Shown piece after piece: positions 1,759-32,478 of a stretch of 64,000 nt of DNA. Location: assembly GCF_014207985.1 (NCBI RefSeq), contig NZ_JACHMI010000001.1, forward strand, positions 5,005,001-5,069,000. The letters are read 5' to 3'. The position numbers and the translations under genes were made by a program. Numbering within the stretch: position 1 is the first letter of the stretch; every line of letters begins with the position of its first letter. A model generated the notes under the pieces. It had not been told where the DNA came from and did not search any database. It worked only from the letters and a program-made list of their open reading frames with translations. Origin of the DNA: Nonomuraea rubra (lineage in GTDB: Bacteria; Actinomycetota; Actinomycetes; Streptosporangiales; Streptosporangiaceae).

Positions 1759-1774
1759 GCATCTTTCAGAGTGC
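1759..1774 (-). promoter_or_regulatory. Cluster element GCA-N7-AGATGC before the ACP operon
   Basis: Reads GCACTCTGAAAGATGC in the sense of the ACP gene and ends 19 bp before its start codon. It is one of ten related 16-mers in the window that share GCA at one end and AGATGC, or one mismatch to it, at the other. Whether it is an activator site or a promoter core is not known. Confidence 0.55.
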
Positions 1775-1804
1775 GCGGTGCCGGACGGTCACCCGGCACC
1801 GCGC
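1773..1804 (-). terminator. Strong hairpin after the DUF1579-like gene
   Basis: A perfect 12-bp GC-rich stem (1773-1784 with 1793-1804) and an 8-nt loop, 24 bp past the stop of the leftward gene that ends at 1828. No T-run follows, as is common in actinomycetes. It may also insulate the ACP promoter. Confidence 0.6.
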
Positions 1805-1827
1805 GCCGGCCACGGACGAAAAATGAA

Positions 1828-2238
1828 CTAGGCCCTGACCATGGTCGACTGATAACCGCCCCCGGGCCATTCCCAGGCCCCGGTGTTGGCCGTGCGGTCC
1901 TCGTTGAACTTGCCGACGAAACGGGCGGGCGAGCCCGGGTCGCCGTACCAGATGGTCAGGGTGTCGCCGTCGACCTCCCAGGTGTACTTGAGGATCTCGT
2001 GGGACTGGCCGAACAGGTGCGACTTGAGCGTGCCGGTCTCGGGGTCGTAGCCGATGTACTCGATCGACTTGCTGACGCCCAGGTCGACGTGCTGGACGAG
2101 GTAGAACCCGCCGTCCAGCCACTCGAACCTGACGGTGCCCTGGTCGGTCTCCTTGCCGTCCTCGAGATTCGTCACCTTCCAGGTGCCGATGAGAACGTCG
2201 AGCTGCCGCATCGCGGGATTCGGGGTTTTGTCGGCCAT
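1828..2238 (-). CDS. DUF1579-like small beta-rich protein, copy 1
   Basis: Protein of 136 residues with the pattern LIGTWKV ... FEWLDGGFYLVQHVD ... EYIGYDP ... WEWPGGGYQSTM, which resembles DUF1579/lipocalin-like small-molecule-binding proteins. The start ATG at 2238 is chosen because GGAGGA lies 8 bp before it; upstream in-frame starts lack a ribosome site. There is no signal peptide, so it should be cytosolic. A clear paralogue sits at 28573-29031, also leftward. The 254-bp gap to the divergent EamA gene holds the promoters. Function unknown; binding of a hydrophobic intermediate or a protective role would fit the family fold but is inference. Confidence 0.75.
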   Translation of the reverse strand: MADKTPNPAMRQLDVLIGTWKVTNLEDGKETDQGTVRFEWLDGGFYLVQHVDLGVSKSIEYIGYDPETGTLKSHLFGQSHEILKYTWEVDGDTLTIWYGDPGSPARFVGKFNEDRTANTGAWEWPGGGYQSTMVRA

Positions 2239-2492
2239 TGCGCATTCCTCCGTTTTTGACGACGTGGTGTGGCAGGGGCCACGGGCCAGATCGTACACTG
2301 CCACCGGATGGCCGCCAATACATGCGCAATGCCGATCCTGACCGTTCTCGGCAAATAAAGTCAAGGGTGTTGTCCGGAGAAAAGTGAGCACGCTGGAAGA
2401 AGACCCGCGACGGGCGGGCGTGCTAGTACTCGAAAGAAGTGCCTGCACGCAGGAATTCGCCGCCGGGGTGAATTCCCGGAAGGAGTCGCGAT

Positions 2493-3386
2493 ATGAGCCG
2501 CCGTGGCTGGGTGCTGTTCGCCCTGATTTCTGTCATGTGGGGAATTCCCTACCTGCTGATCAAGGTCGCGGTGAGCGAGGTGTCGGTGCCCGTGCTGGTC
2601 TTCGCCCGCACCGCCATCGGGGCCGCGCTGCTCCTGCCCCTGGCGCTGCGCGGCGGGCAGCTGGGGATGCTCCGGCGGCACTGGCGGCCGGTCATCGCGT
2701 TCGCCTTCCTGGAGATCCTCGCGCCCTGGTGGCTGCTGTCCGACGCCGAACGGACGCTGTCCAGCTCCACCGCCGGGCTGCTGATCGCCGCCGCGCCGAT
2801 ACTCGGCGTGCTGCTGGCCCGGATGACCGGCGGCGAGGAACGGCTCGGCAGGACCCGCTGGGCCGGGATGGCGCTCGGCCTCGTCGGCGCCGCCGTCCTG
2901 GCCGGGCCGCACCTGGAGGGCGGGAGCGCCTGGTCGATCACCGAGGTGCTGCTGACCGTGCTCGCCTACGCGCTCGCCCCGCTGATCGCCGACCGCTACC
3001 TGCGGGACGTGCCCACCATCCCGCTGACCGCGGCCTGCCTCGCCTTCGCCGCGCTCGTCTACGCCCCCGCCGCCGCCTGGACCTGGCCCACCGCCATGCC
3101 CAGCGGCTCGGTGCTGGTCGCGCTCGCCGGGCTGGGGGTGCTCTGCACGGGGCTGGCGTTCGTGGTGTACGTCGAGCTGATCAAGGAGGCCGGCCCGTCG
3201 CGCGCGCTGGTGTCCACGTACGTCAACCCGGCCGTGGCGATCGCCGCCGGGGTGCTCGTCCTCCAGGAGCCGCTGACCGCGCTGATCGTCGTCTCCTTCG
3301 TGCTGATCCTGGCCGGGTCCGTTCTGGCCACCCGCGCCGAGGGCGAGGTCACCCCGGCCAGGGAGCTGGAGGACGTACGGTCCTGA
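2493..3386 (+). CDS. EamA/DMT-family transporter
   Basis: Membrane protein of 297 residues with about ten hydrophobic segments in two homologous halves, as in the drug/metabolite transporter superfamily; the second half carries AFVVYVELIKEAGPSRALVS and PAVAIAAGVLVLQEPLT, which are typical of EamA. AGGAG lies 8 bp before the ATG. It is followed by a short hairpin (3387-3402) and the adenylating enzyme. Export of a small metabolite is the usual role; the substrate is unknown. One of three transporters in the left part of the cluster. Confidence 0.85.
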   Translation: MSRRGWVLFALISVMWGIPYLLIKVAVSEVSVPVLVFARTAIGAALLLPLALRGGQLGMLRRHWRPVIAFAFLEILAPWWLLSDAERTLSSSTAGLLIAAAPILGVLLARMTGGEERLGRTRWAGMALGLVGAAVLAGPHLEGGSAWSITEVLLTVLAYALAPLIADRYLRDVPTIPLTAACLAFAALVYAPAAAWTWPTAMPSGSVLVALAGLGVLCTGLAFVVYVELIKEAGPSRALVSTYVNPAVAIAAGVLVLQEPLTALIVVSFVLILAGSVLATRAEGEVTPARELEDVRS

Positions 3387-3441
3387 CGGCAGGAACCTGC
3401 CGGTCACCGGCACGTAGCTGACGCCGATCATCCTGGTTCCG

Positions 3442-8688: not shown

Positions 8689-8704
8689 GCACGGTCAGAG
8701 ATGC
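8689..8704 (+). promoter_or_regulatory. Cluster element GCA-N7-AGATGC before the nucleotidyltransferase
   Basis: Reads GCACGGTCAGAGATGC in the sense of the downstream gene, ending 33 bp before its ATG. It is a strict match to the shared element and lies in a 120-bp gap otherwise without features. Confidence 0.55.
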
Positions 8705-8737
8705 TGCCGGGACCCCGCCGTTGGGATTCTGGCCAGC

Positions 8738-9793
8738 ATGAAGGCTCTGGTGCTGTCCGGCGGGTCAGGCACCCGCATGCGCCCCCTGAGCCACTCCATG
8801 CCCAAGCAGCTCATCCCGATCGCGAACAAGCCGGTCCTTGAGCATGTGCTGGAGAGCCTGCGCGAGCTGGGCGTGACCGAGATCGGTCTCGTCGTCGGCG
8901 ACAGGCGGGCGCAGATCGCCGAGGTCGTCGGCGACGGCTCGAGGTTCGGGGCGCACGTCACCTACATCAGCCAGCCCAGGCCGCTGGGGCTGGCCCACTG
9001 CGTCAAGCTGGCCCGCCGCTTCCTCGGCGACGACGACTTCGTCATGTACCTCGGGGACTGCGTGCTGGCCGGCGGGATCGGGCCGATCGCCGAGGAGTTC
9101 CGCGCCCTGCGCCCCGCCGCGCAGCTCGTGGTGCGCCGGGTGGCCGACCCCCGGGCGTTCGGCGTGGCGGAGCTCGACGCGGCGGGCGCCGTCCTGCGCG
9201 TGACGGAGAAGCCCGAACGGCCCGCCAGCGACCTGGTGATGGTCGGCGTCTACTTCTTCACCGCCGCCGTCCACGAGGCCGTCGAGCACATCACGCCGGG
9301 ACGGCGCGGCGAGCTGGAGATCACCGACGCCGTCCAGTGGATGGTCGACCACCAACTCGAGGTGCGGGCGAGCGTGTACGACGGGTACTGGACCGACGCC
9401 GGCCGGGTGGACGACGTCCTCGACTGCAACCGCAGGATGCTGGCCACGCAGGCCCGCGGCATCGCCGGCCAGCTCGACGGGATCAGCGACGTGCGCGGCG
9501 AGGTGGTCATCGAGCCCGGCGCGCGCATCGTCGCCTCCACGATCGAGGGGCCGGCGATCATCGGCGCGGACACCCTCATCGTGGACAGCCACGTCGGCCC
9601 CAACACCTCCATCGGCACGGGCTGCGTGGTACGCGCCACCCGCATCGCCGACTCCATCGTGCTCCACGGCGCCTCGATCGAGGAGGCCAGCCTGCGCGGC
9701 TCGCTCATCGGACGCTTCACCACCGTGGCGCCTGGACAGGCGCACCACCGGCTGGTGGTGGGCGACCACACCCGGATCGAGCTGACCACCTGA
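8738..9793 (+). CDS. rmlA: Glucose-1-phosphate thymidylyltransferase (SgcA1/StrD-like)
   Basis: Nucleotidyltransferase of 351 residues. The N-terminal signature is GGSGTRMRPLSHSMPKQL, followed by ANKPVLEH. The C-terminal third has hexapeptide (left-handed beta-helix) repeats, so it is the long StrD/SgcA1 class rather than the about 290-residue RmlA. It makes dTDP-glucose, the first step of the deoxyaminosugar; the remaining sugar genes are 30 kb away (38.2-43.7 kb), as is common in scattered enediyne clusters. A copy of the cluster element lies upstream, and the MFS exporter follows after 25 bp. Confidence 0.92.
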   Translation: MKALVLSGGSGTRMRPLSHSMPKQLIPIANKPVLEHVLESLRELGVTEIGLVVGDRRAQIAEVVGDGSRFGAHVTYISQPRPLGLAHCVKLARRFLGDDDFVMYLGDCVLAGGIGPIAEEFRALRPAAQLVVRRVADPRAFGVAELDAAGAVLRVTEKPERPASDLVMVGVYFFTAAVHEAVEHITPGRRGELEITDAVQWMVDHQLEVRASVYDGYWTDAGRVDDVLDCNRRMLATQARGIAGQLDGISDVRGEVVIEPGARIVASTIEGPAIIGADTLIVDSHVGPNTSIGTGCVVRATRIADSIVLHGASIEEASLRGSLIGRFTTVAPGQAHHRLVVGDHTRIELTT

Positions 9794-9818: not shown

Positions 9819-11378
9819 GTGACCGACGACGGCGCCCCGCGCGCGGGGCGGAAGGAATGGATGGGGCTGGCCGCGCTGGCCCTGCCCACCATGCTCGTGT
9901 CGCTGGACATCAGCGTGCTGTTCCTGGCGTTGCCGCACCTGAGCGTCGACCTGGGCGCGAACGCCACGCAGCAGCTCTGGATCACCGACATCTACGGCTT
10001 CATGACCGCGGGCTTCCTGGTCACCATGGGCTCGCTGGGCGACAGGATCGGCAGGCGCAGGCTGCTGCTGGTCGGCGGGGCGGCCTTCGGCCTCGTCTCC
10101 CTGGTGGCGGCCATGTCCACCAGCCCCGAGATGCTGATCGTGTGCAGGGCGCTGCTCGGCATCGCCGGGGCGACGCTGCTGCCGTCGACGCTGTCGCTGA
10201 TCGGCGTCATGTTCCGCGACCCCAAGCAGTTCGGTCAGGCCATGGCCGTGTGGGGGACCGCGTTCATGGTCGGCATCGCGCTCGGCCCCGCCGTCGGCGG
10301 CGCGCTGCTCGAACGCTTCTGGTGGGGCTCGGTCTTCGTGATGGGCGTGCCGGTGATGTTGCTGCTGATCGCGGCGCTGCCGCTGCTGCCGGAGTTCCGC
10401 GATCCGGACGGCGGGCGGCTGGACCTGCTCAGCGTCGTGCTGTCGCTGGGAGCGATCCTGCCGCTGATCTACGGGCTCAAGGCCGTGGCGCGGGACGGCT
10501 GGGCGGCGGGACCGCTCGTGGCGATCGCCGCCGGGCTGGTCGTGGGCGTGGTGTTCGTGCGCAGGCAGCGGGCGCTTGAGCATCCGCTGTTCGACCTGCG
10601 CCTGTTCCGCCATCGCGCCTTCACCGCCGCGGTCCTGATCGGGATGTTGTGCGGCTCGCTGCAGACCGGTACGGGGATGGAGGTCGCGCTGTTCCTGCAG
10701 ACCGTGGAGGGGCTGTCGCCGCTGGTCGCCGGGCTGTGGCTGCTGATCCCCTCGCTCGTGCTGATCGTCTCCATCAACCTCACGCCGCGGGTGGCCGCCA
10801 AGGTACGGCCGGCGTACGTGCTGGGCGGCGGCATGCTCATCGCCGTGCTCGGCCAGCTCCTGATCACCCAGGTCGCGGTCGGCGCCGTGGTGCTGCTGAT
10901 CGTCTTCCTGTCCGTGTGCTACTTCGGCGTCGGCCCCGTGGGCGGGCTCGTCAACCAGGTCGCCATGGCCAGCAGCCCGCCGGAGAAGGCGGGCTCGGCC
11001 GCGTCCATGGTGGCCACGGGCGGCGAGTTCGGCGTGGCGCTGGGCATCGCGACGCTGGGCACGCTCGGCACCGCCGTCTACCGCAGCGAGCTGGTCCTGC
11101 CGGCCGGTGCGCCGGCGGTGGCCGGTGACAGCATCAACGGCGCCGTCGGCGCGGCCTCCGGGCTGCCCGCCGCCCAGGCCACGGAGCTGCTGGACGCCGC
11201 CCGCGCGGCCTTCACCACGGGTCTGAACGTGGTCGGCGCGGTCAACGCCGTCCTGTTCGCCGGGCTCGCGCTGCTGGCCCTGACCCAGCTCCGCCACCTG
11301 GCGCCCTTCGCGGGCCACCACCACCCGGAGCCGGAGCCTCAGCCGGAGCAGGGCCAGGAGGCCGCGCTCGCCAAGTGA
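9819..11378 (+). CDS. MFS drug exporter, DHA2 family (SgcB-like)
   Basis: Membrane protein of 519 residues with about 14 hydrophobic segments. It has the DHA2 motif A region GSLGDRIGRRRLLLVGG, the N-terminal LALPTMLVSLDISVLFLALP and motif C AFMVGIALGPAVGGALL. The GTG at 9819 is preferred because GAGGAG lies 7 bp upstream; an in-frame ATG at 9804 would add five residues but lacks a ribosome site. Proton-driven export of the finished enediyne is the expected role, as proposed for SgcB in the C-1027 cluster. It probably shares the promoter of the nucleotidyltransferase. The C-terminus is a short His/Glu/Pro-rich tail. Confidence 0.9.
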   Translation: MTDDGAPRAGRKEWMGLAALALPTMLVSLDISVLFLALPHLSVDLGANATQQLWITDIYGFMTAGFLVTMGSLGDRIGRRRLLLVGGAAFGLVSLVAAMSTSPEMLIVCRALLGIAGATLLPSTLSLIGVMFRDPKQFGQAMAVWGTAFMVGIALGPAVGGALLERFWWGSVFVMGVPVMLLLIAALPLLPEFRDPDGGRLDLLSVVLSLGAILPLIYGLKAVARDGWAAGPLVAIAAGLVVGVVFVRRQRALEHPLFDLRLFRHRAFTAAVLIGMLCGSLQTGTGMEVALFLQTVEGLSPLVAGLWLLIPSLVLIVSINLTPRVAAKVRPAYVLGGGMLIAVLGQLLITQVAVGAVVLLIVFLSVCYFGVGPVGGLVNQVAMASSPPEKAGSAASMVATGGEFGVALGIATLGTLGTAVYRSELVLPAGAPAVAGDSINGAVGAASGLPAAQATELLDAARAAFTTGLNVVGAVNAVLFAGLALLALTQLRHLAPFAGHHHPEPEPQPEQGQEAALAK

Positions 11379-11470: not shown

Positions 11471-12673
11471 TCAGCCGAGGCCGAAGTGGGCGCGGGCCAG
11501 CTCCCGGTTGGCGACCGTGGACAGGAAGACGGCGAACCCGGCGTGGCTGTGCAACGTGGACATGTCCCGCCAGATCCGCTCGATCCGCTCCCCGTTCCGC
11601 ACCGCGCTGGACCCGGCGGTGGGGAAGAGGCAGCGCTCCACCGCGCGCCACGACAGCCGGGCGATCTCCCTGCTGATCGTGGCGATCCGCAGGTCGCGCT
11701 CCCTGGTGAACGAGCCCTCGGCGCAGGCCCGCTGCCATTGCCTGACGGCGTCCGACCAGGCGGCCTCCGCGGTGGCGAGGAGGCCGGCGGCCTCGCCGTA
11801 CCAGAACTGGTAGTCCGGGTCCTCGGCCCGCAGCGAGAACGGCGGGAACACGGTCGTCCTGACCCGCATCAGGTCCTCGTAGGCGTCCAGCGCGCCCTGG
11901 GCCATGCCCAGCATGACGGTGGCGCTGTCCAGCAGCATGAAGCTGAGCGGGCCGCCGCCGTACTCGGGGTTGCCGTGCAGGGACAGGCCGGGAGTGCCGC
12001 CGGCCACCGACGTCTGGCTCAGGTGCAGGGGCAGCGTGTAGTGCCCGGGGATCGAGGCCTGCTCGAAGACGACGCTGTGCGAGCCGCTGCCCTTGAGGCC
12101 GAGCTGGTTGCCCCAGTCGTCCAGGCGGCGCCACCGGTCGCGCGGCGCCACGAACAGCATGGGCGCGCCGTCCACCACCACGTGCCCCATGAAGTGGGTG
12201 GCGTAGGGGGCGCCCGAGCAGTAGTTCCAGGTCCCGTCGAGGATCCACTGGCCGTCCTGGCCGCGCGTCGCGGTGCCGCTGGGCGCCACGGTGGCGGGGC
12301 AGACGAAGTCGCCGGTGGCGAACAGCTCGGCCTGCGCCCGCTCGCCGAACAGGGTGGCGACCGCCAGCGCGTGCGCCGTTCCGAGCGAGTACATCCATCC
12401 GGTCGAGGGGCAGCCCCGCGCCAGCGTCATCGACACCCGCAGGAACGTCTCCACGCCGAACTCGTAGCCGCCGAAGCGGCGCGGCACCAGGATGCGGTAG
12501 AAGCCGGCCTCCGCGAAGGCCTCGTGGGTGTCGGGCGCGTAGAAGGTGCGCTGTTCGGTCTCGGCCTGGCGCTCGGCCAGGGCGGGCACCATGGCCTGCG
12601 CGCGCGCGACGACCAGGTCGGGGGTGAGAGCGGGCTCGGGCGGAGCTCCGGGGGCATGAGTGACGGCTGTCAT
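11471..12673 (-). CDS. Group D flavin monooxygenase / acyl-CoA dehydrogenase-like protein
   Basis: Protein of 400 residues in the acyl-CoA-dehydrogenase fold of two-component flavin monooxygenases (HsaA/HpaB-like). Seen: FYRILVPRRFGGYEFGVETF near residue 60, TGWMYSLGTAHAL, WNYCSGAPYATHF and a C-terminal helical domain; the acyl-CoA catalytic Glu region is not obvious. Such enzymes hydroxylate aromatic or polyketide substrates with reduced flavin from a separate reductase, which is not seen in the window. It is transcribed divergently from a homologue at 12841, and the promoters lie in the gap with two dyads. Likely substrate: the aryl side chain or the enediyne core (inference). Confidence 0.83.
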   Translation of the reverse strand: MTAVTHAPGAPPEPALTPDLVVARAQAMVPALAERQAETEQRTFYAPDTHEAFAEAGFYRILVPRRFGGYEFGVETFLRVSMTLARGCPSTGWMYSLGTAHALAVATLFGERAQAELFATGDFVCPATVAPSGTATRGQDGQWILDGTWNYCSGAPYATHFMGHVVVDGAPMLFVAPRDRWRRLDDWGNQLGLKGSGSHSVVFEQASIPGHYTLPLHLSQTSVAGGTPGLSLHGNPEYGGGPLSFMLLDSATVMLGMAQGALDAYEDLMRVRTTVFPPFSLRAEDPDYQFWYGEAAGLLATAEAAWSDAVRQWQRACAEGSFTRERDLRIATISREIARLSWRAVERCLFPTAGSSAVRNGERIERIWRDMSTLHSHAGFAVFLSTVANRELARAHFGLG

Positions 12674-12732: not shown

Positions 12733-12801
12733 GCATCTCCTGGCGTGCCACGCAATCACGCACGTCAGGAGATGCGCACGTCAACGTCCAAATGGGACGT
12801 T
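12733..12801. promoter_or_regulatory. Paired cluster elements plus a second dyad between two divergent monooxygenases
   Basis: Two 16-bp half-elements face each other: GCATCTCCTGGCGTGC (12733-12748) and, on the other strand, GCATCTCCTGACGTGC (12775-12760). They form a near-perfect 43-bp palindrome with an 11-bp centre. Each half points its AGATGC end to the gene on its side (60 and 66 bp from the starts). A second dyad, AACGTCC-N5-GGACGTT, follows at 12783-12801. Confidence 0.65.
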
Positions 12802-18612: not shown

Positions 18613-18628
18613 GCGTCTCACGGCGTGC
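18613..18628 (-). promoter_or_regulatory. Cluster element before the HpaB-type operon
   Basis: In gene sense GCACGCCGTGAGACGC, one mismatch to the shared GCA-N7-AGATGC, ending 63 bp before the hydroxylase start. Immediately upstream in that sense is GGAACAGC; the 32404 copy has GAAACAGC at the same place. The divergent O-methyltransferase shares this gap. Confidence 0.5.
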
Positions 18629-18685
18629 GCTGTTCCGGCACTCTGGGAGGTGCCGCCCCGCACGCGCCGGTGTGACGATGGCCGC

Positions 18686-20983: not shown

Positions 20984-21859
20984 TCAGGAGGCCATCGCCA
21001 CCGCCGCCTTGCGCTCCTGCCAGGCCTCGTGCGCCCCGCGCACCTTCGCCCACAGCGCGGCCCGGTCCTTGGCGTTGACATCCCCCAGGTGCAGCCCGAA
21101 CACCGAGGCGAGCGCGTCGTACCAGTCGGCCCGGGTGGCGAGCTCCACCTCGCTCGTCCCCTCACCGCTCACCCGCCGCAACATGCAGCCGACCAGCGCG
21201 TCCGCTCCGGTGGCGTCGCGCCGCAGCACGACGGCGGCACGCACCAGCCGCGACTCGGGCGAGGTGCACAGGTACGGATGCCACTCCACGAAGTCCACCG
21301 CCGTGGCCGGCTCGGTCTCCATGTCGAGCCCGGCGATGGACCCGCGCGGATCGTGGTCGAACCGCCACCCGCCGGGCTCCACGACCGACGCCGACAGCCG
21401 GAACTCGAACGGCCCCTGCCGGTAGGCGCCCTCGCGCAGCGGCAGCGGCTCCAGCAGCCCGTCACCGAGCCCGATGTCGACGAGCCACGACTGCCCGTCC
21501 AGGGTGACGCTCAGCGCCAGGTGCGGCGCGAAGGAGACGCCGCTCGCCGGGGCCCGCCTGCTTGCCTGGACGCCGGCGCGATGCCAGGTGACGTCGTACC
21601 CCAGGGCGGTCAGCAGCGTGGCGAACGCGCCGTTGAGCTGGACGCAGTAGCCGCCGCGCCCGCGCAGGATCCGGTCGATCGACTCGCGCGGATCCAGCGT
21701 GATCCTGCGGCCGAGCTGCACTTCCAGCGTCTCGTACGGCACCCGCTCGACGTGCGCCCGATGCAGCGCGCGCAGCGCGTCGAGCGACGGCTCGCCGGGG
21801 TCGCGGATCTCCAGCCGGTCCAGGTACGTGTTCAGGTCACGGTCATGGGGTCGCCGCAT
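20984..21859 (-). CDS. Arylamine N-acyltransferase-fold enzyme (NAT/RifF-like)
   Basis: Protein of 291 residues with the cysteine-protease-like NAT triad intact: Cys72 in GRGGYCVQLNGAF, His113 in FAPHLALSV and Asp128 in SWLVDIGLGD. The family acylates arylamines or, as in RifF-type amide synthases, releases aryl-amine polyketides as amides. GGAGGAG sits 4 bp before the ATG at 21859. Because the cluster also carries tryptophan dioxygenase and kynureninase, whose usual product is anthranilate, an arylamine acceptor is a natural guess. The donor could be a carrier-bound acyl group. Both are inference; the family is secure. Confidence 0.9.
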   Translation of the reverse strand: MRRPHDRDLNTYLDRLEIRDPGEPSLDALRALHRAHVERVPYETLEVQLGRRITLDPRESIDRILRGRGGYCVQLNGAFATLLTALGYDVTWHRAGVQASRRAPASGVSFAPHLALSVTLDGQSWLVDIGLGDGLLEPLPLREGAYRQGPFEFRLSASVVEPGGWRFDHDPRGSIAGLDMETEPATAVDFVEWHPYLCTSPESRLVRAAVVLRRDATGADALVGCMLRRVSGEGTSEVELATRADWYDALASVFGLHLGDVNAKDRAALWAKVRGAHEAWQERKAAVAMAS

Positions 21860-21911: not shown

Positions 21912-21955
21912 GCATCTCGCGGAATGCTGCCCGTACCGCGCAATACGCAAGATGC
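21912..21955. promoter_or_regulatory. Paired cluster elements between the NAT and FkbM genes
   Basis: Two facing 16-mers, GCATCTCGCGGAATGC (21912-21927) and, on the minus strand, GCATCTTGCGTATTGC (21955-21940), with a 12-bp centre. They have the same layout as the pair at 12733-12775. The AGATGC ends lie 52 bp and 65 bp from the two divergent starts. Confidence 0.65.
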
Positions 21956-22020
21956 GGCGGGATCCGGGCGTGATCGACGATGACACTGGCCTGAGCCATT
22001 CACCGGGAGGAGACGACCAG

Positions 22021-22698
22021 ATGCGCAACCAGGTGATCGTGCGGGAGCAGGTGACCGCCCGGTGGGAGGACCACCTGCCCGGACTGCTCGGACAGGTGGG
22101 GGTGCCGGCCCAGGGCGTGGTGCAGGTGGGTGCGCACCGGGGGCAGGAGGTGGCGGCGTTCACGGCGTGCAGGTTCCGCCGCCTGGTCATGATGGAGCCG
22201 AACCTCGACCACCTGTCGGCGCTGCGCGAGCAGTTGCGCGTGCACCATCTGGCCGCGGGGCTGCCTGAGCCCGCGGACGGCCACCTGCCCCGCGTGGTGG
22301 TGGCCGCCGCGGCGGGCCGCACGCGCGGCAGGGCCACGCTGAACATCACCCCCTATGACAAGCAGTCCAGCATGCTGCCGCCGTTGCAGCCGATGGCCGT
22401 CGTGCGCCAGGTGAGCGTGCCGGTCGTCCCCGTCAGCGAGGTGCAGCACGGCTGCAACGTGCTGGTGGTGGACGCCCAGGGCGCCGAGCTGGACGTCCTG
22501 GCGGGCACCGACCTGAGCAGGCTGCGGCTGGCCGTGATCGAGGGCAGCGTGTCGGCCCGCTACAGCGGCGGCTCGACGCTGGACAGCATCGCCGCCCACA
22601 TGACCGGGCACGGCTGGCGCCCGGTGGCCTCCTGGGCGCACGAGCGCCCCGGCGTCGTGGACGTGGCCTGGCTGGCACCGGAGCCGGCGGCCGCATGA
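22021..22698 (+). CDS. FkbM-family methyltransferase-like protein
   Basis: Protein of 225 residues with an FkbM-type SAM-methyltransferase pattern: VVQVGAHRGQEVAAF as the SAM loop, RRLVMMEPN as the acidic strand-2 end, and CNVLVVDAQGAELDVLAG where FkbM proteins have DVEGAE. GGGAGGAG lies 8 bp before the ATG. It is the first gene of a rightward operon with a crotonase and a CoA-transferase (4-bp overlap to the crotonase). It likely methylates a hydroxyl of an aryl or sugar group; no narrower call can be made. Confidence 0.8.
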   Translation: MRNQVIVREQVTARWEDHLPGLLGQVGVPAQGVVQVGAHRGQEVAAFTACRFRRLVMMEPNLDHLSALREQLRVHHLAAGLPEPADGHLPRVVVAAAAGRTRGRATLNITPYDKQSSMLPPLQPMAVVRQVSVPVVPVSEVQHGCNVLVVDAQGAELDVLAGTDLSRLRLAVIEGSVSARYSGGSTLDSIAAHMTGHGWRPVASWAHERPGVVDVAWLAPEPAAA

Positions 22699-23449: not shown

Positions 23450-25015
23450 ATGATCGGAAAGGTGTGCGACGCGGCGCAGGCGGTGGCGCTCATCGGCGAC
23501 CGCCAGACCGTCGCGAGCACGGGAGTCATCGGCTGGCTCACGCCCGACGCCCTGCTCGCCGCGCTCGGCGAGCGTTACCGGGCCGGCGGCGAGCCGCGGG
23601 ACCTGACGTTCTACTTCCCCTGCGCGACCGGCGACGGCGTGGGCATCCGCGGCATGGACCACGTGGCGGTGAAGGGCCTGATGCGCCGCATCGTGTCGGG
23701 CTCGTTCATCAACCCGCGCCACCCGGAGACGGGCGAGCGGCCCGCGCTGACGGAGCTGATCCAGAACGATCTCGTCGAGGCCTACACCTGGCCGATGGGC
23801 GCCACCATGCACTGGCTGCGCGAGGTGGCCAGGCGCGGCCCCGGCTACCTGACGCGGGTCGGCCTCGGCACGTACGCCGACCCGCGGCACGGCGGCGGCA
23901 GGTTCACCCGCCTGGCCACCGACGACCTGGTCGAGCTGGTCGAGCTGGGCGGCCAGGAGTACCTGTGGTACCCGACCTGGCCGCTGGACGTGGGCCTGAT
24001 CCGCGCGGGCAGCGCCGACCGGGACGGCAACCTGTCGTTCGAGGACCAGCCGCTGCTGTCCAGCGCGCTGGCGATCGCCCTGGCGGTCAAGGCCGGCGGC
24101 GGCACCGTGATCGCGCAGGTGTCGCGGCTGGTGGAGCCGGGGGAGCGGCCGGCGCGCGAGGTCCGCGTGCCCGGCGCGCTCGTCGACCGGGTCGTCGTGG
24201 TGCCCGGCGCGCCCACCGGCACCGGCGTCCGTGACGACCCCGGCTACCTGGGCCACGTGCCCGGCGCGGCCGCGCGCGTGCCCCGGCTGCCGGCCGGGCC
24301 CGACAAGGTCATCGCCCGCCGGGTGGCCAGGGAGGTGCGCAAGGGGGAGACCTCCATCTTCGGGTTCGGCGCCTCGTCGGACGCCGTGCTCGTCATGGCG
24401 GAGGACGGCGTGCTGGACGGCGACGGCCTCGACGACTACCTGTTCACCACCGAGCACGGCTCGTTCGGCGGCATCGTGATGAGCGGCTGGCAGTTCTCCG
24501 CGAACTACGCGCCGCGCGCGCTGCTCGACGGGCCCGCCCAGTTCGACTTCATCGACGGGGGCGGCTGCCCGTTCGCCGCGCTGGCCTTCGCGCAGCTCGA
24601 CGCGCTCGGCCGGGTGAACGTCAGCCGCTTCGGCGCGGCCAACCCCGGCGCCGGCGGCTTCGTCGACATCGCGCACGGCGCCGCCCGCCTGGTCTTCGCC
24701 GGCACCATGACCACCGGCGGGCTCCGGGCGGACTGCACGGGCGGCCGCCTGCGGATCCTGGAGGAGGGGCGGGTGGCCAAGTTCGTGCCCCGGGTGGACC
24801 ACGTGACGTACCGGCTGCGCGAGGGGGTCGCCGCGGGACAGTCGGCCCTGGTGGTCACCGAGCGGGCGGTCTTCGACGTCACCGCGGACGGGCTCGTGCT
24901 GGCCGAGGTCGCCCCGGGCGTGGACGTCGAGCGCGACGTGCTCGCCCACGTCGGCTTCCCCGTCAGGCGGGCCCGCGACGTCACGCTCATGGACGCCGCC
25001 CTGTTCCGCCCGTGA
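23450..25015 (+). CDS. Family I CoA-transferase, fused alpha and beta subunits
   Basis: Protein of 521 residues, the length of fused propionate/acetate CoA-transferases. The N-terminal half binds the acid (GVIGWLTPDALLAALGERY), the C-terminal half carries the glutamate site in YLFTTEHGSFGGIVMSG and the Gly-rich NPGAGGFVDI loop. The ATG at 23450 follows GAGG. It moves CoA between a short or aryl carboxylate and a donor such as acetyl-CoA. It probably activates or recycles the acid handled by the upstream crotonase. It ends tail-to-tail with the kynureninase-like gene, overlapping it by 29 bp inside a 15-bp tandem repeat. Confidence 0.88.
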   Translation: MIGKVCDAAQAVALIGDRQTVASTGVIGWLTPDALLAALGERYRAGGEPRDLTFYFPCATGDGVGIRGMDHVAVKGLMRRIVSGSFINPRHPETGERPALTELIQNDLVEAYTWPMGATMHWLREVARRGPGYLTRVGLGTYADPRHGGGRFTRLATDDLVELVELGGQEYLWYPTWPLDVGLIRAGSADRDGNLSFEDQPLLSSALAIALAVKAGGGTVIAQVSRLVEPGERPAREVRVPGALVDRVVVVPGAPTGTGVRDDPGYLGHVPGAAARVPRLPAGPDKVIARRVAREVRKGETSIFGFGASSDAVLVMAEDGVLDGDGLDDYLFTTEHGSFGGIVMSGWQFSANYAPRALLDGPAQFDFIDGGGCPFAALAFAQLDALGRVNVSRFGAANPGAGGFVDIAHGAARLVFAGTMTTGGLRADCTGGRLRILEEGRVAKFVPRVDHVTYRLREGVAAGQSALVVTERAVFDVTADGLVLAEVAPGVDVERDVLAHVGFPVRRARDVTLMDAALFRP

Positions 25016-26264
25016 GGGTTCCGCCCGTGAGGGTTCCGCCCGCGTAGGTTCGGTCCGCGTGGGTTCCGCCCGTGACGCACGCTCGCGGGACAGTGCGCAT
25101 CAGGTCGCGGATCTCCTCGGCCAGCAGCTCCGCGGCCCGCTCCAGCTGCTCGTCCGACAGGTAGGGCGCGGGCCCGAGCCGCAGGTAGCCGCCCCGGCTG
25201 TCCGCCTGCACGCCGCGCGCCGCGAGACCGGCACGCAGCCGCCCGGCGTACGGCGACCGCAACGCCAGGAACCCGCCGAAGTCCTCGGCCCGCCCCGTCC
25301 TGTCCCTGGTCACGAGGTGCTCGGGCACGTCCAGCGCGTCGAACCGGGCGGCCAGCAGCCCCACCTGGCGCAGCGAGACCGCCCGCAGGAACGCCGGCGT
25401 CAGCCCCTGCCCGGCGAAGAAGTCGAAGACGCGCGCGGCCCGGTAGTGACTGGTCGGATCGTAGGTGGCGCCCGCGAACCGGGGCGCGCCCGCGGGGTAG
25501 GTGACGCCGGGAGGCTGCTCGCCCGCCAGCTCGCCGAACTCCGAGAACCACCCGGTGATCACCGGCCGCAGCCGGTCGGCGTGGCCGGGCAGCCGCAGGA
25601 AACAGTTGCCCTCGCCGAGCTGCAGGTACTTGTACCCGCCGCCGACCACCCAGGCCTGCTCGATCCCCGCCGTGCCGAACGGCACCACGCCGAGCGCGTG
25701 GTAGGCGTCCACCAGCAGCTCCGTACCGGAGCGCAGGCACGCCCCGGCCAGCACGTCCAGCCCGGGCACGATCCGGGCGTCCTCGAACAGCACCGCGGAC
25801 ACCAGCACCGCCGCGGTGCCGCCGTCCACCGCGCCGGCCAGCCGCCCGGCGAGCGTGTCGGCCGGCCGGGCGGGCACCACCCTCACCTCCACCCCCTCCT
25901 CGGCCAGCCGGGCGAGCTGCCTGCGCAGCGTGTGGAATTCCCCGTCGGTGGTGACCAGCCTGGGGCGGCGGCGCAGGTCGAGCGCGGACAGGAAGCGCAG
26001 CACCAGGTCGTGCGTGCTGGCGCCGAGTGCCAGCTCCGCGTGCGGGTCGCCGAGGAAGCGGCGCAGCCCGTCCCTGACCCTGTCGGCCTGCTTGAACGCC
26101 AGCGGCCACTTGCCGTCGGCGTCCCTGGCGGCGTCCATGAACGCGTCGATCTGCCCGGCCAGCGCCACGTCCGGCCAGGCCTGGTGGGAGTGGCCGGTGA
26201 GCAGCAGCCGCTCGGAGACGCGGAAGCGGGAGTAGTGCGGCGCCAGCCGCGCGGACTGGTCCAT
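24987..26264 (-). CDS. kynU: Kynureninase-like PLP enzyme
   Basis: Fold-type I (class V) PLP enzyme of 425 residues. The Schiff-base lysine is K212 in WVVGGGYKYLQLGEGN, close to kynureninase YKYLN; Asp in LLVDAYHALGVVPF binds the pyridine nitrogen. Kynureninase cleaves kynurenine or 3-hydroxykynurenine to anthranilate or 3-hydroxyanthranilate plus alanine. It overlaps tryptophan 2,3-dioxygenase by one ATGA-type junction, so both steps are made together. The C-terminus runs into a TLTGG repeat tail encoded by the 15-bp tandem repeat that also covers the end of the opposing CoA-transferase gene. A related 2-keto-acid or cysteine-desulfurase-like reaction is less likely given the partner. Confidence 0.85.
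   Translation of the reverse strand: MDQSARLAPHYSRFRVSERLLLTGHSHQAWPDVALAGQIDAFMDAARDADGKWPLAFKQADRVRDGLRRFLGDPHAELALGASTHDLVLRFLSALDLRRRPRLVTTDGEFHTLRRQLARLAEEGVEVRVVPARPADTLAGRLAGAVDGGTAAVLVSAVLFEDARIVPGLDVLAGACLRSGTELLVDAYHALGVVPFGTAGIEQAWVVGGGYKYLQLGEGNCFLRLPGHADRLRPVITGWFSEFGELAGEQPPGVTYPAGAPRFAGATYDPTSHYRAARVFDFFAGQGLTPAFLRAVSLRQVGLLAARFDALDVPEHLVTRDRTGRAEDFGGFLALRSPYAGRLRAGLAARGVQADSRGGYLRLGPAPYLSDEQLERAAELLAEEIRDLMRTVPRACVTGGTHADRTYAGGTLTGGTLTGGTGRRP
25003..25077. repeat. Five 15-bp tandem repeats at the overlap of convergent genes
   Basis: Units of the type GTTCCGCCCGTGAGG: copies 1 to 5 start at 25003, 25018, 25033, 25048 and 25063, with copies 3 and 4 diverged. Being a multiple of three they read through in frame in the kynureninase-like gene, giving its TLTGG tail; unit 1 holds the stop codon of the CoA-transferase. 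Confidence 0.8.
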
Positions 26265-27055
26265 CACATCGCGCTCCTGATCGCCCACAGGTCGGGGAAG
26301 CAGGGGGCCAGCGAGCTCATGAGGTAGTGGCCGCCGCTGGAGCCGCCGGTGCCGGGACGGGCGCCGATCGTCCGCTCCACCATTTTCAGGTGCCGGTAAC
26401 GCCACTCCTGGATGGTCTCGTCCAGGTCCACCATGCGCTCGCAGAGCTGCGCGGCGCCCGTGTCGTCCTGGTAGACGCGCAGCAGCAGCTCCTGAAGGTC
26501 CTGCGACGGCTCCAGCTGCTCGGTCACGTCCCTGTGCAGCTTGTCCTTCGGCACCTCGTAGCCGCGCAGGTAGAGGTAGGTGAGCAGGGAGTCGTACAGG
26601 GAGGGCCTGGCCATCGCGGCCGCGATCCTGCCGTGCGCCGGGCTGCCCTCCGGCTGGCCGGCCAGGACCCGCTCGTCGCGCCGCCCGAGCACCGCCTCGA
26701 TCTCCCTGAACTGCGCCGACTGGAAGCCGCTGCTGGTGCCGAGCTTGCCGCGGAACGTGGAGAACTGGCCGGGCGTCATCGTCTCCAGCACGTCCATCTG
26801 GGCCGCCGCCAGCTTCAGTATCCGCAGCAGCCGGTGCAGGGTCCGCATCGCGTGCGCGGTGAACCCGCCCGCCAGCTCCAGCTGCAGCTCCGCCATCTCG
26901 TGCAACGTCTGCTTGAACCACAGCTCGTACACCTGGTGGATGACGATGAACAACGTCTCGTCGTGGCTGTCGGAAACCGGCCGCTGCGCCCCGAGAATCT
27001 CGTCGAGCGCCAAGTACGAGGAATACGTGAGAACAGTTTTTTCCGTCATGTGCAT
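26264..27055 (-). CDS. kynA: Tryptophan 2,3-dioxygenase
   Basis: Heme dioxygenase of 263 residues, near the usual 270-280. Substrate and heme pocket blocks are clear: FIVIHQVYELWFKQTLHE (distal His), TPGQFSTFRGKLGTSSGFQS, RGYEVPKD and EWRYRHLKMVERTIG with the proximal heme His; the C-terminal loop GTGGSSGGHYL binds the substrate carboxylate. It opens the indole ring of L-tryptophan to N-formylkynurenine. Start MHMTEK at 27055; the internal ATG at 27049 is an alternative. Primary kynurenine catabolism cannot be excluded, but location inside the cluster and coupling to a kynureninase suggest supply of an anthranilate-type unit. Confidence 0.93.
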   Translation of the reverse strand: MHMTEKTVLTYSSYLALDEILGAQRPVSDSHDETLFIVIHQVYELWFKQTLHEMAELQLELAGGFTAHAMRTLHRLLRILKLAAAQMDVLETMTPGQFSTFRGKLGTSSGFQSAQFREIEAVLGRRDERVLAGQPEGSPAHGRIAAAMARPSLYDSLLTYLYLRGYEVPKDKLHRDVTEQLEPSQDLQELLLRVYQDDTGAAQLCERMVDLDETIQEWRYRHLKMVERTIGARPGTGGSSGGHYLMSSLAPCFPDLWAIRSAM

Positions 27056-27146: not shown

Positions 27147-27162
27147 GCACGCCACGAGATGC
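27147..27162 (+). promoter_or_regulatory. Cluster element before the acyltransferase
   Basis: Reads GCACGCCACGAGATGC on the plus strand, a strict match, ending 69 bp before the acyltransferase ATG at 27232. No matching half is seen for the divergent dioxygenase, whose start lies 91 bp away. Confidence 0.55.
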
Positions 27163-27231
27163 GCCCGTGAAGAGCGCGGCGTGACGATGGCGCCAGGTCC
27201 CATCAACGAACGGACTGCGAGGAAGCATGCC

Positions 27232-29530: not shown

Positions 29531-30997
29531 CTAATTGACGATCTCCATCTGGCCCATCATTCCGAGGGCGGAGTGCTCCAGCATGTGGCAGTGATACACG
29601 TATCGGCCCAGGTGAGAGCCGATGTCGACCTGTAGGCGAACGGTCTCGCCCGGCTGGATGAGTACGGTGTCCTTCCAGCCGCCCTCACCCGGAAGCGGCG
29701 GCTTGCCGTCCCGGGACAGGAGCAGGAAGTGCGAGAGGTGGGTGTGGAAGTTGTGCGGGACGCCGAACCCGGACCCGCCGACGTTCGTGTCGCTGTTGGT
29801 GACCTCCCAGATCTCGGTGGTCCCCCGCTTGACCTGCATGTCCACCCTGGCCGGGTCGAACACCCGATCGTTGATCAGCGCCCTGATGTTGACCGGGTCC
29901 AGGCTGAGCACGAGCTTGCGGTCCTGGACGGCCGTCGGCATCGGGGCCAGTGGGCGGAGCTGCGCGGGCACCCGGCTGCGGTCGGCCGCCGCGCGTACGA
30001 CGTCGAAGCGCAGCACCGCGCCCGCCACGTCGTTGAGCGTCACGTGGCCGCCCAGCGGGACCCCGGCGAAGTCGACGACGATGTCGGCGCGCTCGCCCGA
30101 CGACAGCACCAGCCTGTCCACCGGGACCGGCGCGGGCAGCAGACCGGCGTCGGTGGCGATCTGCGTCATCCGCGCGCCGTCGAGCGTCAGCTCGAAGACG
30201 CGGTGGGTGGAGCCGTTGAGCAGGCGTAGGCGGTACTTGCGCGCGGCCACCTCGAAGTAGGGCTGCGGCTTGCCGTTGGCCAGCAGCGTCGGGCGGTTGT
30301 AGGGGTCGGCGGGGTCGAAGACCAGGTTCCCGGCGTCGTCGAACAGCGCGTCCCGCAGCATGATCGGCACGTCGTAGGAGCCCGACGGCAGGCCGAGCCG
30401 CCGCTCGTCCTCGTCGTCGATGAGGTAGAACCCGTGCAGGCCGCGGTAGACGTTCTCGGCCTCCAGATGGTGCGCGTGGTCGTGGTACCAGAGGGTCGCG
30501 CCCGGCTGGGCGTTCGGGTACAGATACGCCCTGCCCGAGCCCGGCGTGATCACGTCCGTCGGGTAGCCGTCGTACGCGGCGGCCACGCGCCCGCCGTGCA
30601 GGTGCACGTTGGTCTCGTGGCCGAGCTTGTTGTCGAAGGTGATCAGCGTCCTGCGGCCGCGCCTGGCGCGGATGGTGGGCCCGCAGAAGGAGCCGCCGTA
30701 GGTGAGCACGGGCGTGCTCAGTCCCGGCAGGATCTGGGCCGTCGCCGGCTGCACGGCCAGCCGGTAGATGTCGGTGTCGGAGGTGCGCACCGACGGGATG
30801 CGGGTGGCGGGCACCGGCATCTTGACGGAGAAGGGGGTGACGGCCGGGCCCGACCTGACCGCGGGCACCCGGCCCGCGTGGTCGTGCACGTGGAGGTGCT
30901 GCGGCGTTCGCCGCGTGTCCCCGGACTGGACGAACGGGGCCAGCGCGACGCCTCCCGTCAGCCCGCCGAGAACGAGTAAGCGCCGTCGGCTCAACAT
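29531..30997 (-). CDS. Secreted multicopper oxidase (bilirubin oxidase / phenoxazinone synthase type)
   Basis: Protein of 488 residues with three cupredoxin domains. Copper motifs: HLHGG, WYHDHAHHLE, HNFHTHLSHF and the C-terminal YHCHMLEHSALGMMG, which has the T1 Cys, His and Met. The N-terminus SRRRLLVLGGLTGGVALAPF looks like a Tat signal. AGGAG stands 6 bp before the ATG at 30997. CotA/PhsA-like oxidases oxidise phenols and o-aminophenols; PhsA couples aminophenols related to 3-hydroxyanthranilate. In this cluster it could oxidise a phenolic or aminophenolic arm outside the membrane, or detoxify. Family certain, role inferred. Confidence 0.9.
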   Translation of the reverse strand: MLSRRRLLVLGGLTGGVALAPFVQSGDTRRTPQHLHVHDHAGRVPAVRSGPAVTPFSVKMPVPATRIPSVRTSDTDIYRLAVQPATAQILPGLSTPVLTYGGSFCGPTIRARRGRRTLITFDNKLGHETNVHLHGGRVAAAYDGYPTDVITPGSGRAYLYPNAQPGATLWYHDHAHHLEAENVYRGLHGFYLIDDEDERRLGLPSGSYDVPIMLRDALFDDAGNLVFDPADPYNRPTLLANGKPQPYFEVAARKYRLRLLNGSTHRVFELTLDGARMTQIATDAGLLPAPVPVDRLVLSSGERADIVVDFAGVPLGGHVTLNDVAGAVLRFDVVRAAADRSRVPAQLRPLAPMPTAVQDRKLVLSLDPVNIRALINDRVFDPARVDMQVKRGTTEIWEVTNSDTNVGGSGFGVPHNFHTHLSHFLLLSRDGKPPLPGEGGWKDTVLIQPGETVRLQVDIGSHLGRYVYHCHMLEHSALGMMGQMEIVN

Positions 30998-31047
30998 GGC
31001 TGAACTCCTATCGCCAGCTCCGAGGGTGGCATCGCACCCCGGAGCGG

Positions 31048-31063
31048 TCATCTTCCGTATTGC
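31048..31063 (-). promoter_or_regulatory. Cluster element before the multicopper oxidase operon
   Basis: In gene sense GCAATACGGAAGATGA, one mismatch to GCA-N7-AGATGC and 14 of 16 identical to the copy at 21955-21940. It ends 50 bp before the oxidase start. Two direct repeats of GCTCACTTGACG lie just beyond it, the second overlapping the stop of the next gene. Confidence 0.5.
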
Positions 31064-31081
31064 TCACTTGACGCGTAGTGC

Positions 31082-32374
31082 TCACTTGACGGCCAGCCGG
31101 CGCGGCGTCAGCCCGCGGGCGCAGTCGTCGTTGTGGGCGTCGAGCAGGCGCTGCGCCGAGACCGTCGCCGCGGCCAGCCGCGTGCCCGGGTCGGCGCCGC
31201 GCAGGACGCCGGCCATGGCGTCCGTCAGCCGGTCCTGGATCCCGGCGAGGTCGCCGGCGATCGCGCCGAGCGCGGCGGGCGAGCCGTCGGCCGCGCGGAG
31301 CTGGTCGGTGGCCGCCCGGTGGATCGGGTGCCGGTCGTACCAGCCCTCCCGCTCCAGCAGCTCGACCGAGGCGCCGGTGACCGGCAGGAACCCGGCGGCG
31401 CGGTGCCATCCGGCCACGTTGCGGGCGTCGAGCAGGTACTGCAGGAACGCCAGCGCGCCGTCCGCCCTGTCGCGGGGCAGCCCGGCGGTGAGCCAGAACG
31501 CCTGGCCCGAGACCAGGTGCCCGGCGCGCGGCGCCGCCTCGTTGTACGGCAGCGGGCAGGCCACCGCCTCGAAGCCCGCCTCGGAACAGGCCCGCGCGAC
31601 CATCCCGGCGACGACGGAGGAGGCGATGGTGAAGGCCGCCCGCTGCTCGGTGAAGGCCCGCAGCGTGCCGCCCCAGTCCTCCGGCGTACCCGTGTCCAGG
31701 TAGTGGCCCCGCTCGTGCAGGCCCTGCCACCAGGTGGCGTAGGCCAGCAGCTCCGCGGAGTCGAGCGTCACCTTCTCCGCGCGCCCCGACCTGCCGTTGT
31801 CGTGGTCGGTCAGCAGCCCGCCCTGGCCGGCCACGGCCTGCTGGATCAGCCAGCCGTGGTTGGCCCAGGTGGCGGGCGAGCCGGTGGCGGCGCAGGCCGA
31901 CTCCAGCTCGCCCCAGGTCCGCGGCATCGCGGTGACGCCCGCGGCCTCCAGCATGGCGGTGTTGCCCAGCAGCACCGCCGTGGTGGCGGTCATCGGCGCG
32001 GCGGCCAGCTCGCCCGCGTAGGTGTAGTAGCCGCGTACGGCGGGCTCCAGGTCGCCGAGGACGACGCGCTCGCCGAGGATCTCGCCGCGGCCGGCGACGG
32101 CCCGCTCGATCGGCACGAACAGCGGCTCGCCCGACGGCCCCCGCGTGTCCAGGGCGAGCCGGGTCGCGGTGGCGTAGTACTCGGCGAGGTCCGGGGGCCG
32201 GCCCTGCCCGGCGGCCCTGGCCACCTCGGCGGGCAGCTCGCGGAAGCCGTACCCGGTGACCTCGATCCGGTAGCCCGGGTGGGCGGCCTCGAAACCGGCG
32301 GCCAGCTTCTTGATCGGATCCAGGTAGCCCGGCAGCGGATGCTCCGCGAGCCAGACGTTGACGACCGTTGTCAT
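31082..32374 (-). CDS. ABC-type solute-binding protein (family 1) lacking a signal peptide
   Basis: Protein of 430 residues of the UgpB/MalE sugar-binding type: LDPIKKLAAGFEAAHPGYRI, NTAMLEAAGVTAMPRTWGEL, RAFTEQRAAFTIASSVVAGM and LQYLLDARNVAGWHRAAGFL followed by PVTG. The start ATG at 32374 gives MTTVVNVWLAEHPLPGY, which is already the first beta-strand of the mature fold, so no signal peptide or lipobox is present; the longer in-frame extension to 32467 is also not a signal peptide. No permease or ATPase genes are near. It is therefore likely cytosolic. Binding or sequestration of the toxic enediyne or a sugar intermediate is a possible role. Confidence 0.85.
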   Translation of the reverse strand: MTTVVNVWLAEHPLPGYLDPIKKLAAGFEAAHPGYRIEVTGYGFRELPAEVARAAGQGRPPDLAEYYATATRLALDTRGPSGEPLFVPIERAVAGRGEILGERVVLGDLEPAVRGYYTYAGELAAAPMTATTAVLLGNTAMLEAAGVTAMPRTWGELESACAATGSPATWANHGWLIQQAVAGQGGLLTDHDNGRSGRAEKVTLDSAELLAYATWWQGLHERGHYLDTGTPEDWGGTLRAFTEQRAAFTIASSVVAGMVARACSEAGFEAVACPLPYNEAAPRAGHLVSGQAFWLTAGLPRDRADGALAFLQYLLDARNVAGWHRAAGFLPVTGASVELLEREGWYDRHPIHRAATDQLRAADGSPAALGAIAGDLAGIQDRLTDAMAGVLRGADPGTRLAAATVSAQRLLDAHNDDCARGLTPRRLAVK

Positions 32375-32403
32375 CGCCTCATCATGAACACGCGCCCGCG
32401 CCC

Positions 32404-32478
32404 GCACATCTCGTGACGTGCGCTGTTTCGCGAGGCCACACAGCAATTCAGAGGATGAGTGATCCAACAGCGAGATGT
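32404..32478. promoter_or_regulatory. Cluster elements between solute-binding protein and halogenase operon
   Basis: On the minus strand, in the sense of the solute-binding gene, GCACGTCACGAGATGT (32419-32404) ends 29 bp before that start. A weaker half for the rightward halogenase operon, ending CAGCGAGATGT at 32478, stands 42 bp before its GTG. The left arm CACATCTCG and right arm CGAGATGTG form a long-spaced inverted repeat. Confidence 0.5.

Follow-up and report, generated by a model that had tools for sequence, protein, structure and literature searches.

A short asymmetric DNA element, GCA-N7-AGATGC, recurs upstream of genes in a stretch of 64,000 nucleotides of the Nonomuraea rubra genome (contig NZ_JACHMI010000001.1, positions 5,005,001 to 5,069,000; hereafter the window), the gene content of which marks it as an enediyne-type cluster from a Nonomuraea-like actinomycete. 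The element is probably the operator of an AraC/XylS-type activator that is encoded by the cluster itself, and together with a box located 19-20 bases further on it would constitute an activator-dependent promoter. The bipartite make-up of the element, its spacing, asymmetry and conservation, its clustering in enediyne loci and its co-occurrence with the AraC-type gene were observed; that the AraC-type protein binds the element and activates transcription, and which sigma factor and transcription starts are involved, is what we infer from them. A first-pass annotation of the window had suggested that the element marks a hidden regulon and may serve an activator; this reading is strongly supported. 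The operator and the regulon appear to be new, and the proposed regulator is of a known kind.

Copies of the element

Written in the sense of the gene that it serves, the element spans 16 bp with nine fixed bases. The ten copies listed in the first-pass annotation are all present in the sequence, and a recount confirmed that seven are exact at the nine fixed bases and that three carry one mismatch. Nine of the ten coordinates were right, the copy given as 32419-32404 being located at 32421-32406. The list was real, yet incomplete: the copies at 18638-18653 and 32443-32458 and a probable weak copy at 52524 had been missed, as had three copies past the window end and a second box, NANNNT. The copies are as follows (the numbering of the window is continued past 64000, into stretch L033).

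1759..1774, minus strand: element GCACTCTGAAAGATGC; -10 box GATGCT at 1738-1733; orthologous site in three relatives; followed by an acyl carrier protein (1456-1725) and an ectoine-synthase-like cupin (1085-1459); predicted leaderless, transcription being expected to begin 1 nt ahead of the GTG
8689..8704, plus strand: element GCACGGTCAGAGATGC; -10 box GATTCT at 8725-8730; kept in four relatives; followed by a nucleotidyltransferase (8738-9793) and an MFS protein (9819-11378); predicted leaderless
12733..12748, minus strand: element GCACGCCAGGAGATGC; -10 box GACGCT at 12712-12707; serves an acyl-CoA-dehydrogenase-type protein (11471-12589)
12760..12775, plus strand: element GCACGTCAGGAGATGC; -10 box GACGTT at 12796-12801; followed by an acyl-CoA-dehydrogenase-type protein (ends 14022), SnoaL-like and FAD proteins
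18613..18628, minus strand: element GCACGCCGTGAGACGC, one mismatch; box CAGGCT at 18593-18588 (N19); followed by an HpaB-type hydroxylase (17020-18555) and an epoxide hydrolase (15863-17005)
18638..18653, plus strand: element GCACTCTGGGAGGTGC, one mismatch; -10 box GACGAT at 18674-18679; followed by an O-methyltransferase (18731-19678) and a P450 (19675-20925)
21912..21927, minus strand: element GCATTCCGCGAGATGC; box CACGAT at 21891-21886; serves an N-acetyltransferase (20984-21859)
21940..21955, plus strand: element GCAATACGCAAGATGC; -10 box GACGAT at 21976-21981; followed by an FkbM methyltransferase (22021-22698), an enoyl-CoA hydratase and a CoA-transferase
27147..27162, plus strand: element GCACGCCACGAGATGC; -10 box GACGAT at 27183-27188; serves an acyltransferase (ends 28512)
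31048..31063, minus strand: element GCAATACGGAAGATGA, one mismatch; box CACCCT at 31028-31023 (N19); followed by a multicopper oxidase (29531-30997), DoxX and DUF1579 proteins
32406..32421, minus strand: element GCACGTCACGAGATGT, one mismatch; box CATGAT at 32386-32381 (N19); followed by a solute-binding protein (31082-32374); predicted leaderless
32443..32458, plus strand: element GCAATTCAGAGGATGA, two mismatches; -10 box GACCCT at 32479-32484; kept in four relatives; followed by a halogenase/nonribosomal peptide synthetase (NRPS)/sugar operon (32521-43740)
52524..52539, plus strand: weak candidate GCATGCGGGAAGTTGC; box GATCGT at 52560-52565; 331 bp upstream of 52871
76235 (plus), 81500 (minus) and 82430 (plus): three elements beyond the window end

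Apart from the weak candidate, which scores 12 bits only and yet has GCAT and AGTTGC kept in four of four relatives, these amount to 15 copies, 14 of which are situated between predicted genes while the remaining one overlaps the last bases of a gene. As had been claimed, the AGATGC end always points to the gene: all 15 copies aim at a predicted gene start at most 350 bp away. The distance of 19-70 bp to the start codon reported earlier varies with the start that is chosen; our own gene calls put the start codon 31-194 bp from the end of the element in all 15, and 331 bp from it in the candidate at 52524. Four back-to-back pairs (12748/12760, 18628/18638, 21927/21940 and 32421/32443) serve divergent operons.

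Enrichment in the cluster

At the looseness of one mismatch the bare pattern was found 17 times, with 16.8 occurrences expected from shuffles, and the raw count is therefore uninformative. The exact pattern occurs 34 times in the 12.88-Mb genome, seven of these matches falling within one stretch of 25 kb in the window, and the 26 matches that lie neither in the window nor 17.5 kb past it correspond to an expectation of 0.13 per 64 kb. A genome scan with a position matrix had been suggested as a check. Across the window and its surroundings (144 kb), such a matrix, built from 12 copies, yielded 15 sites of at least 20 bits, 12 of them in the window itself; three of the 15 (32443+, 76235+ and 82430+) were not in the training set. 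By contrast, 40 stretches elsewhere in the genome (800 kb) contained no site of at least 18 bits and two of at least 16 bits.

A second box at a fixed distance

In an alignment of 11 copies (the ten listed earlier and 18638+), a box NANNNT, mostly GACGAT or GACGCT, starts 20 bases after the element in eight and 19 bases after it in three; the best count for 11 random upstream pieces was five (2000 trials, 100 offsets, two adjacent spacings pooled). Among the 30 exact genome matches that were tested for the box, the seven of this cluster have it at N20 and one match 17.5 kb past the window has it at N19, while the remaining 22 have it at neither spacing. Because the box keeps its spacing in the cluster copies and not in the 22 others, GCA-N7-AGATGC-N19/20-NANNNT behaves as a bipartite promoter.

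The same spacing was recovered elsewhere. For strong elements with a box, 38 had a spacing of 19 and 96 a spacing of 20 in 18 other clusters, with at most nine at any other spacing from 10 to 30; in 80 loci centred on homologues of the AraC-type gene the numbers were 15, 39 and at most seven, respectively. When sites were picked by the element alone (18 bits), NANNNT was present at 19 or 20 bases in 110 of 123. An A at -11 and a T at -7 are the bases most typical of promoters of the main (group 1, HrdB-like) sigma factor, whose -10 element also has a T at -12 (TANNNT). The first two are those found in the 110 sites, and the T at -12 is absent from all 110, the base there being G in 79, C in 25 and A in six. 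With a looser cut-off (12 bits), the box was present at 19 or 20 bases in 223 of 306 sites, with a T at -12 in seven. The missing T, mostly replaced by G or C, may keep these promoters silent without the activator.

Predicted start codons are distributed unevenly with respect to the box: nine lie 5-7 bases after it, one at -5, none at 8-19 and many from 20 onwards, which is the pattern expected if transcription begins seven bases after the box and some genes are leaderless. The predicted leaderless genes of this cluster start at 1725, 8738 and 32374. Relative to the predicted transcription start, the element would occupy approximately -48 to -33, and the -10 box and the start-codon spacing agree with this placement.

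Consensus and conservation

The consensus of 192 non-redundant sites is GCA[ACT]TYYRG[GA]AGATGC, followed after 19 (53 sites) or 20 (139 sites) bases by, mostly, [GC]ACG[AC]TG. Two blocks, GCA (positions 1-3) and AGATGC (positions 11-16), are one helical turn apart. The site is asymmetric, in that none of the 192 scores equally well when reversed (mean 20.5 bits forward versus -6.0 reversed), and a 7-2-7 palindrome of the LuxR-family type was rejected on this reversed scoring. No strongly conserved repeat was seen in the 19-20 base spacer or in the DNA upstream of the sites, nor any strongly conserved column in the spacer.

The footprint is visible in a comparison with the distant relative G183, in which 13 of 16 sites could be aligned: identity is 96% for the eight core bases, 64% for the spacer, 79% upstream and 83% downstream. 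In three close relatives the core (97%) is barely above the downstream part (96%). AGACGC often takes the place of AGATGC as the second block in two enediyne genomes of Amycolatopsis (G349:C3:245264, 251307, 282160, 282230; G351:C56:790680, 791727, 798660). The activator of the same two genomes has FSARF versus FSSRF in its second helix, although the coupling to AGACGC is not clean.

Distribution over other genomes

The strict pattern with N20 was counted in 345 genomes of the order, the own genome included and several being drafts. At least one match was present in 157 and at least five in 49, and a reversed-pattern control gave zero to three matches per genome. Among the genomes listed (to G143), at least nine have 5-10 matches on a single contig. 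Seven of these, chosen for their many matches, were opened: all seven have cluster genes in common with the window, the HpaB protein being 82-85% identical in five. The DUF1702 pair is on the same contig in five, and in the drafts G070 and G073 it is on a different one.

For the scans across genomes the matrix was trained on this cluster alone. In 18 other clusters (1.15 Mb, close orthologues included) it detected 170 sites, versus a mean of 1.2 and a maximum of eight for permuted matrices; 157 of the 170 are between predicted genes and 165 aim at a start at most 350 bp away. In the 80 AraC-centred loci (1.56 Mb) there were 74 sites (permuted matrices: mean 0.8, maximum four), with at least one site in 47 loci, including those of Lentzea, Saccharomonospora, Phytohabitans, Dactylosporangium and Micromonospora radicis; the single Streptomyces locus among the 80 had none. 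These loci were fetched through the AraC-type protein and are therefore no independent test of its link with the element. In G012, G065, G221, G305 and G310 a site precedes the DUF1702-polyketide synthase (PKS) operon at approximately 50-110 bp, and sites, with positions judged by eye, recur between the AraC-type (or neighbouring ECF) gene and a DUF5987-GMC operon.

Which regulator reads the element

Five regulators of the cluster were compared across motif-rich genomes, namely:

43744..46773, minus strand: SARP-type regulator with NB-ARC and TPR domains (Pfam)
49720..52488, plus strand: LAL/LuxR-type regulator (Pfam)
67205-67987 (L033:3205-3987), minus strand: AraC/XylS-type regulator of 260 aa, 3.2 kb past the window end and beside the enediyne PKS operon
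68428-68931 (window's scale): ECF sigma factor, adjoining the AraC-type gene
76313-77299 (window's scale): LuxR-type protein of 328 aa, with an element 62 bp upstream

Of the five, the AraC-type gene alone turned up in every motif-rich genome: 49 of 49 have it (E 1.7e-46 or better), as do three of 31 motif-free genomes (E 3e-33, 3e-33 and 4e-21). Among further enediyne genomes, with a strong DUF1702 match and fewer than five strict matches, 55 of 56 have a homologue; at least one strict match is present in 29 of the 31 in which this homologue has an E of 1e-40 or better, and in 10 of the 24 with a weaker one. The protein has an N-terminal domain of approximately 100 residues with two helix-turn-helix (HTH) motifs (Pfam HTH_18), for which sequence and fold matches to MarA, SoxS, RamA and Rob were obtained, and its closest named relatives are from Nonomuraea. 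The C-terminus appears, in the model of a homologue, to form a beta-sandwich domain (residues 128-223) that could be a ligand sensor.

Several observations weigh against the AraC-type protein as the reader. Co-occurrence cannot tell its gene from the remainder of the enediyne cassette, which has an equally wide distribution; the genes around the PKS that are shared with the cassettes of G001, G065, G221, G282, G305 and G310 encode enzymes and DUF proteins besides the AraC-type regulator. Because of this equal spread, the protein was chosen for its DNA-binding domain, for the asymmetry and the presumed class II position of the site and by analogy with known AraC-family activators. In addition, 33 of the 80 AraC-centred loci lack any 18-bit site in the DNA scanned; the draft genome G248 (approximately 1050 contigs) has four strict matches and no AraC match at 1e-20; and in the enediyne genomes of genus g35, which may use another site, the AraC homologues have diverged (best E 1e-26 to 1e-37) and the matches number zero to two. 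This cluster has a weak site ahead of its PKS operon, and sites of at least 18 bits were not found upstream of the ECF-DUF5987-GMC operon or of the AraC-type gene itself. With regard to the predicted transcription start, when any ATG or GTG that opens an 80-codon frame is taken in place of the predicted start codons, offsets of 8-19 after the box do occur (nine cases). Finally, the element might be read by a regulator encoded elsewhere or by the product of a gene upstream of the window. A global regulator from outside the cluster is an improbable candidate: the five regulators compared were all from the cluster and none from elsewhere, which leaves room for it, whereas the lack of sites of at least 18 bits in the 800 kb sampled would be unusual for such a protein.

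That the LAL protein or the 328-aa LuxR-type protein reads the element as a class II site is quite unlikely. Both genes are inside the cluster, regulators of the GerE type can be positioned near -40, and the 328-aa protein, found in 27 of 36 motif-rich genomes, has an element in front of its gene as a feed-forward target would. GerE/LuxR sites are usually, though not invariably, dyad-symmetric, whereas the site described here is not palindromic. Furthermore, among these 36 genomes (several of them drafts, and counted for LAL, LuxR and ECF on the best-ranked candidates only) the LAL orthologue, which the first-pass annotation had put forward, was not near the AraC-type gene in 13, and the 328-aa orthologue (E 1e-118 or better) was not found in nine; a LAL homologue was not found in the fetched stretches of G012, G065, G221, G305 and G310. 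The LAL gene seems interrupted or split, while elements persist, at G164:C1:545678-548452, G211:C2:67871-70396 and G068:C11:184175-187291.

An alternative sigma factor such as the ECF protein could also be taken to read the two boxes as its -35 and -10, in line with the earlier suggestion of a promoter core for a special sigma factor. The fixed spacing, the poor match of the GACGAT box to the main sigma factor (no T at -12) and the position of the ECF gene, whose orthologue (E 4e-46 or better) was found in 21 of the 36 genomes, would fit. The element nevertheless stands upstream of a separate -10 box, in which the A at -11 and the T at -7 are characteristic of group 1 sigma factors. A gap of 19-20 bases behind a 16-bp element also exceeds what is usual between a -35 and a -10, and the orthologue was not found in the other 15 genomes (in G070 it was possibly cut off by a contig end). 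This reading is very unlikely.

Binding by the SARP, likewise proposed earlier, is highly improbable. SARPs are common cluster activators that also act close to the -10 box, and their sites need direct heptamer repeats next to that box, whereas no strongly conserved repeat was seen upstream or in the spacer; a homologue was present in five of 18 fetched stretches, some of which are partial. Chance repetition in intergenic DNA, for which the one-mismatch count could be invoked, is practically negligible, being refuted by the second box, the clustering, the cross-genus conservation, the footprint and the start-codon spacing.

The enediyne cluster

The cluster has what marks an enediyne cluster, a PKS cassette with DUF1702, UnbV and a hot-dog thioesterase as neighbours, and the cassette is kept in related loci. 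The relevant features are:

53847..63999, plus strand: core enediyne cassette with two DUF1702 proteins, an UnbV/ASPIC protein, an UnbU-like protein and a type I PKS
57941-58915, plus strand: protein without a Pfam match, which we take to be UnbU-like
58912-64785, plus strand: type I PKS, extending past the window end
52871-67144, plus strand: apparent enediyne PKS operon, with the weak element candidate 331 bp upstream

The Pfam matches were at 1e-135 and 2e-120 for the DUF1702 proteins and at 1.5e-10 for UnbV_ASPIC, besides the type I PKS and a 4HBT_2 hot-dog thioesterase; other members identified by Pfam include an HpaB-type hydroxylase, acyl-CoA-dehydrogenase-type proteins, a halogenase-like flavoprotein, free-standing NRPS parts, an HPPD-like protein and sugar genes. 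In NCBIfam the PKS matches models for type I PKS and for fatty-acid synthases, though below their cut-offs, and it is because of its neighbours and the conserved cassette that we call it an enediyne PKS.

The first gene of the PKS operon (52871-53836, plus strand, 321 aa) has no Pfam or NCBIfam match, and homologues were found in three of 18 related fetched stretches (G164, G185 and G065). A tryptophan 2,3-dioxygenase-like protein is encoded beside a 425-aa protein without a Pfam match at 24987-27055 (minus strand); both are present in the G058 and G221 clusters, and no element was found upstream of the pair. A majority of the related genomes in genus g1 have one isolated and more distant DUF1702 homologue (best E approximately 1e-50 to 1e-80) and no enediyne-type pair.

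Proposed mechanism and relation to known systems

We propose that the AraC-type activator binds the single asymmetric site as a MarA-like unit with two HTH motifs, where by analogy one helix would read GCA and the other AGATGC, about one turn of DNA away. Located at approximately -48 to -33, the activator would make up for the lack of a -35 element and bring RNA polymerase, carrying the main sigma factor, to a poor -10 box, in which the A at -11 and T at -7 are kept and a T at -12 is avoided. At least 15 such promoters would switch on most of the operons for tailoring, transport and precursors in this cluster. Elsewhere, a predicted promoter of this kind also precedes the enediyne PKS cassette, and another the DUF5987-GMC operon beside the activator gene.

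The closest parallel is class II activation by MarA, SoxS, Rob and RamA, which share with the AraC-type protein the two-HTH domain (N-terminal here) and with the element an asymmetric site of two conserved blocks, one turn apart; the position beside the -35 region, where their sites lie, is the one predicted for the element. The GCA at the 5' end resembles several AraC-family sites, although the MarA/SoxS/Rob/RamA consensus differs from the one found here, and these systems lack the -10 box without a T at -12, the C-terminal beta-sandwich and the enediyne setting. AdpA, an AraC-family protein of Streptomyces, differs in being a global regulator with another, looser consensus. As with the cluster-wide operators of StrR and the PAS-LuxR regulators, one activator would use one site before most operons of an antibiotic cluster; those sites are palindromes of other families, whereas the element is asymmetric and common to enediyne loci of several orders.

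AraC-type regulators, like the activator proposed here, are known from other enediyne clusters. TnmR7 of the tiancimycin cluster is described as an AraC-family positive regulator that is conserved in all reported anthraquinone-fused enediyne clusters, and it was insoluble and not used in gel shifts (PMC9464397). SgcR2 of the C-1027 cluster is an AraC/XylS-type regulator (PMC2657911), and its reverse transcription primer, the only part compared, reads HFTRIF when reverse-complemented, a first-helix string that occurs in members of the present AraC family. The passages of PMC2657911 used here give no binding site for SgcR2, and neither these nor those of PMC9464397 name a target site for the AraC-type activators in such clusters; a description of the present element was not found in the open-access literature searched.

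Implications

Tentatively, and with somewhat less confidence than an even chance would warrant, one operator with an anti-consensus -10 box at a fixed distance may govern how enediynes are produced in three or more orders of actinobacteria (as we take the genera to be classified). The C-terminal beta-sandwich of the activator may sense a pathway ligand, little product may be made without the activator as there is no recognisable -35 and no T at -12, and the element may act as a genome-wide tag of enediyne operons.

Few natural cytotoxins are as potent as the enediynes, which are used as antibody-drug payloads; many enediyne clusters stay silent. The element offers a candidate target site for AraC-type enediyne activators, predicts the operon membership of each cluster and can serve as a sequence tag for enediyne operons in unfinished genomes. 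With a single protein and a short probe it becomes possible to test directly what switches enediyne clusters on.

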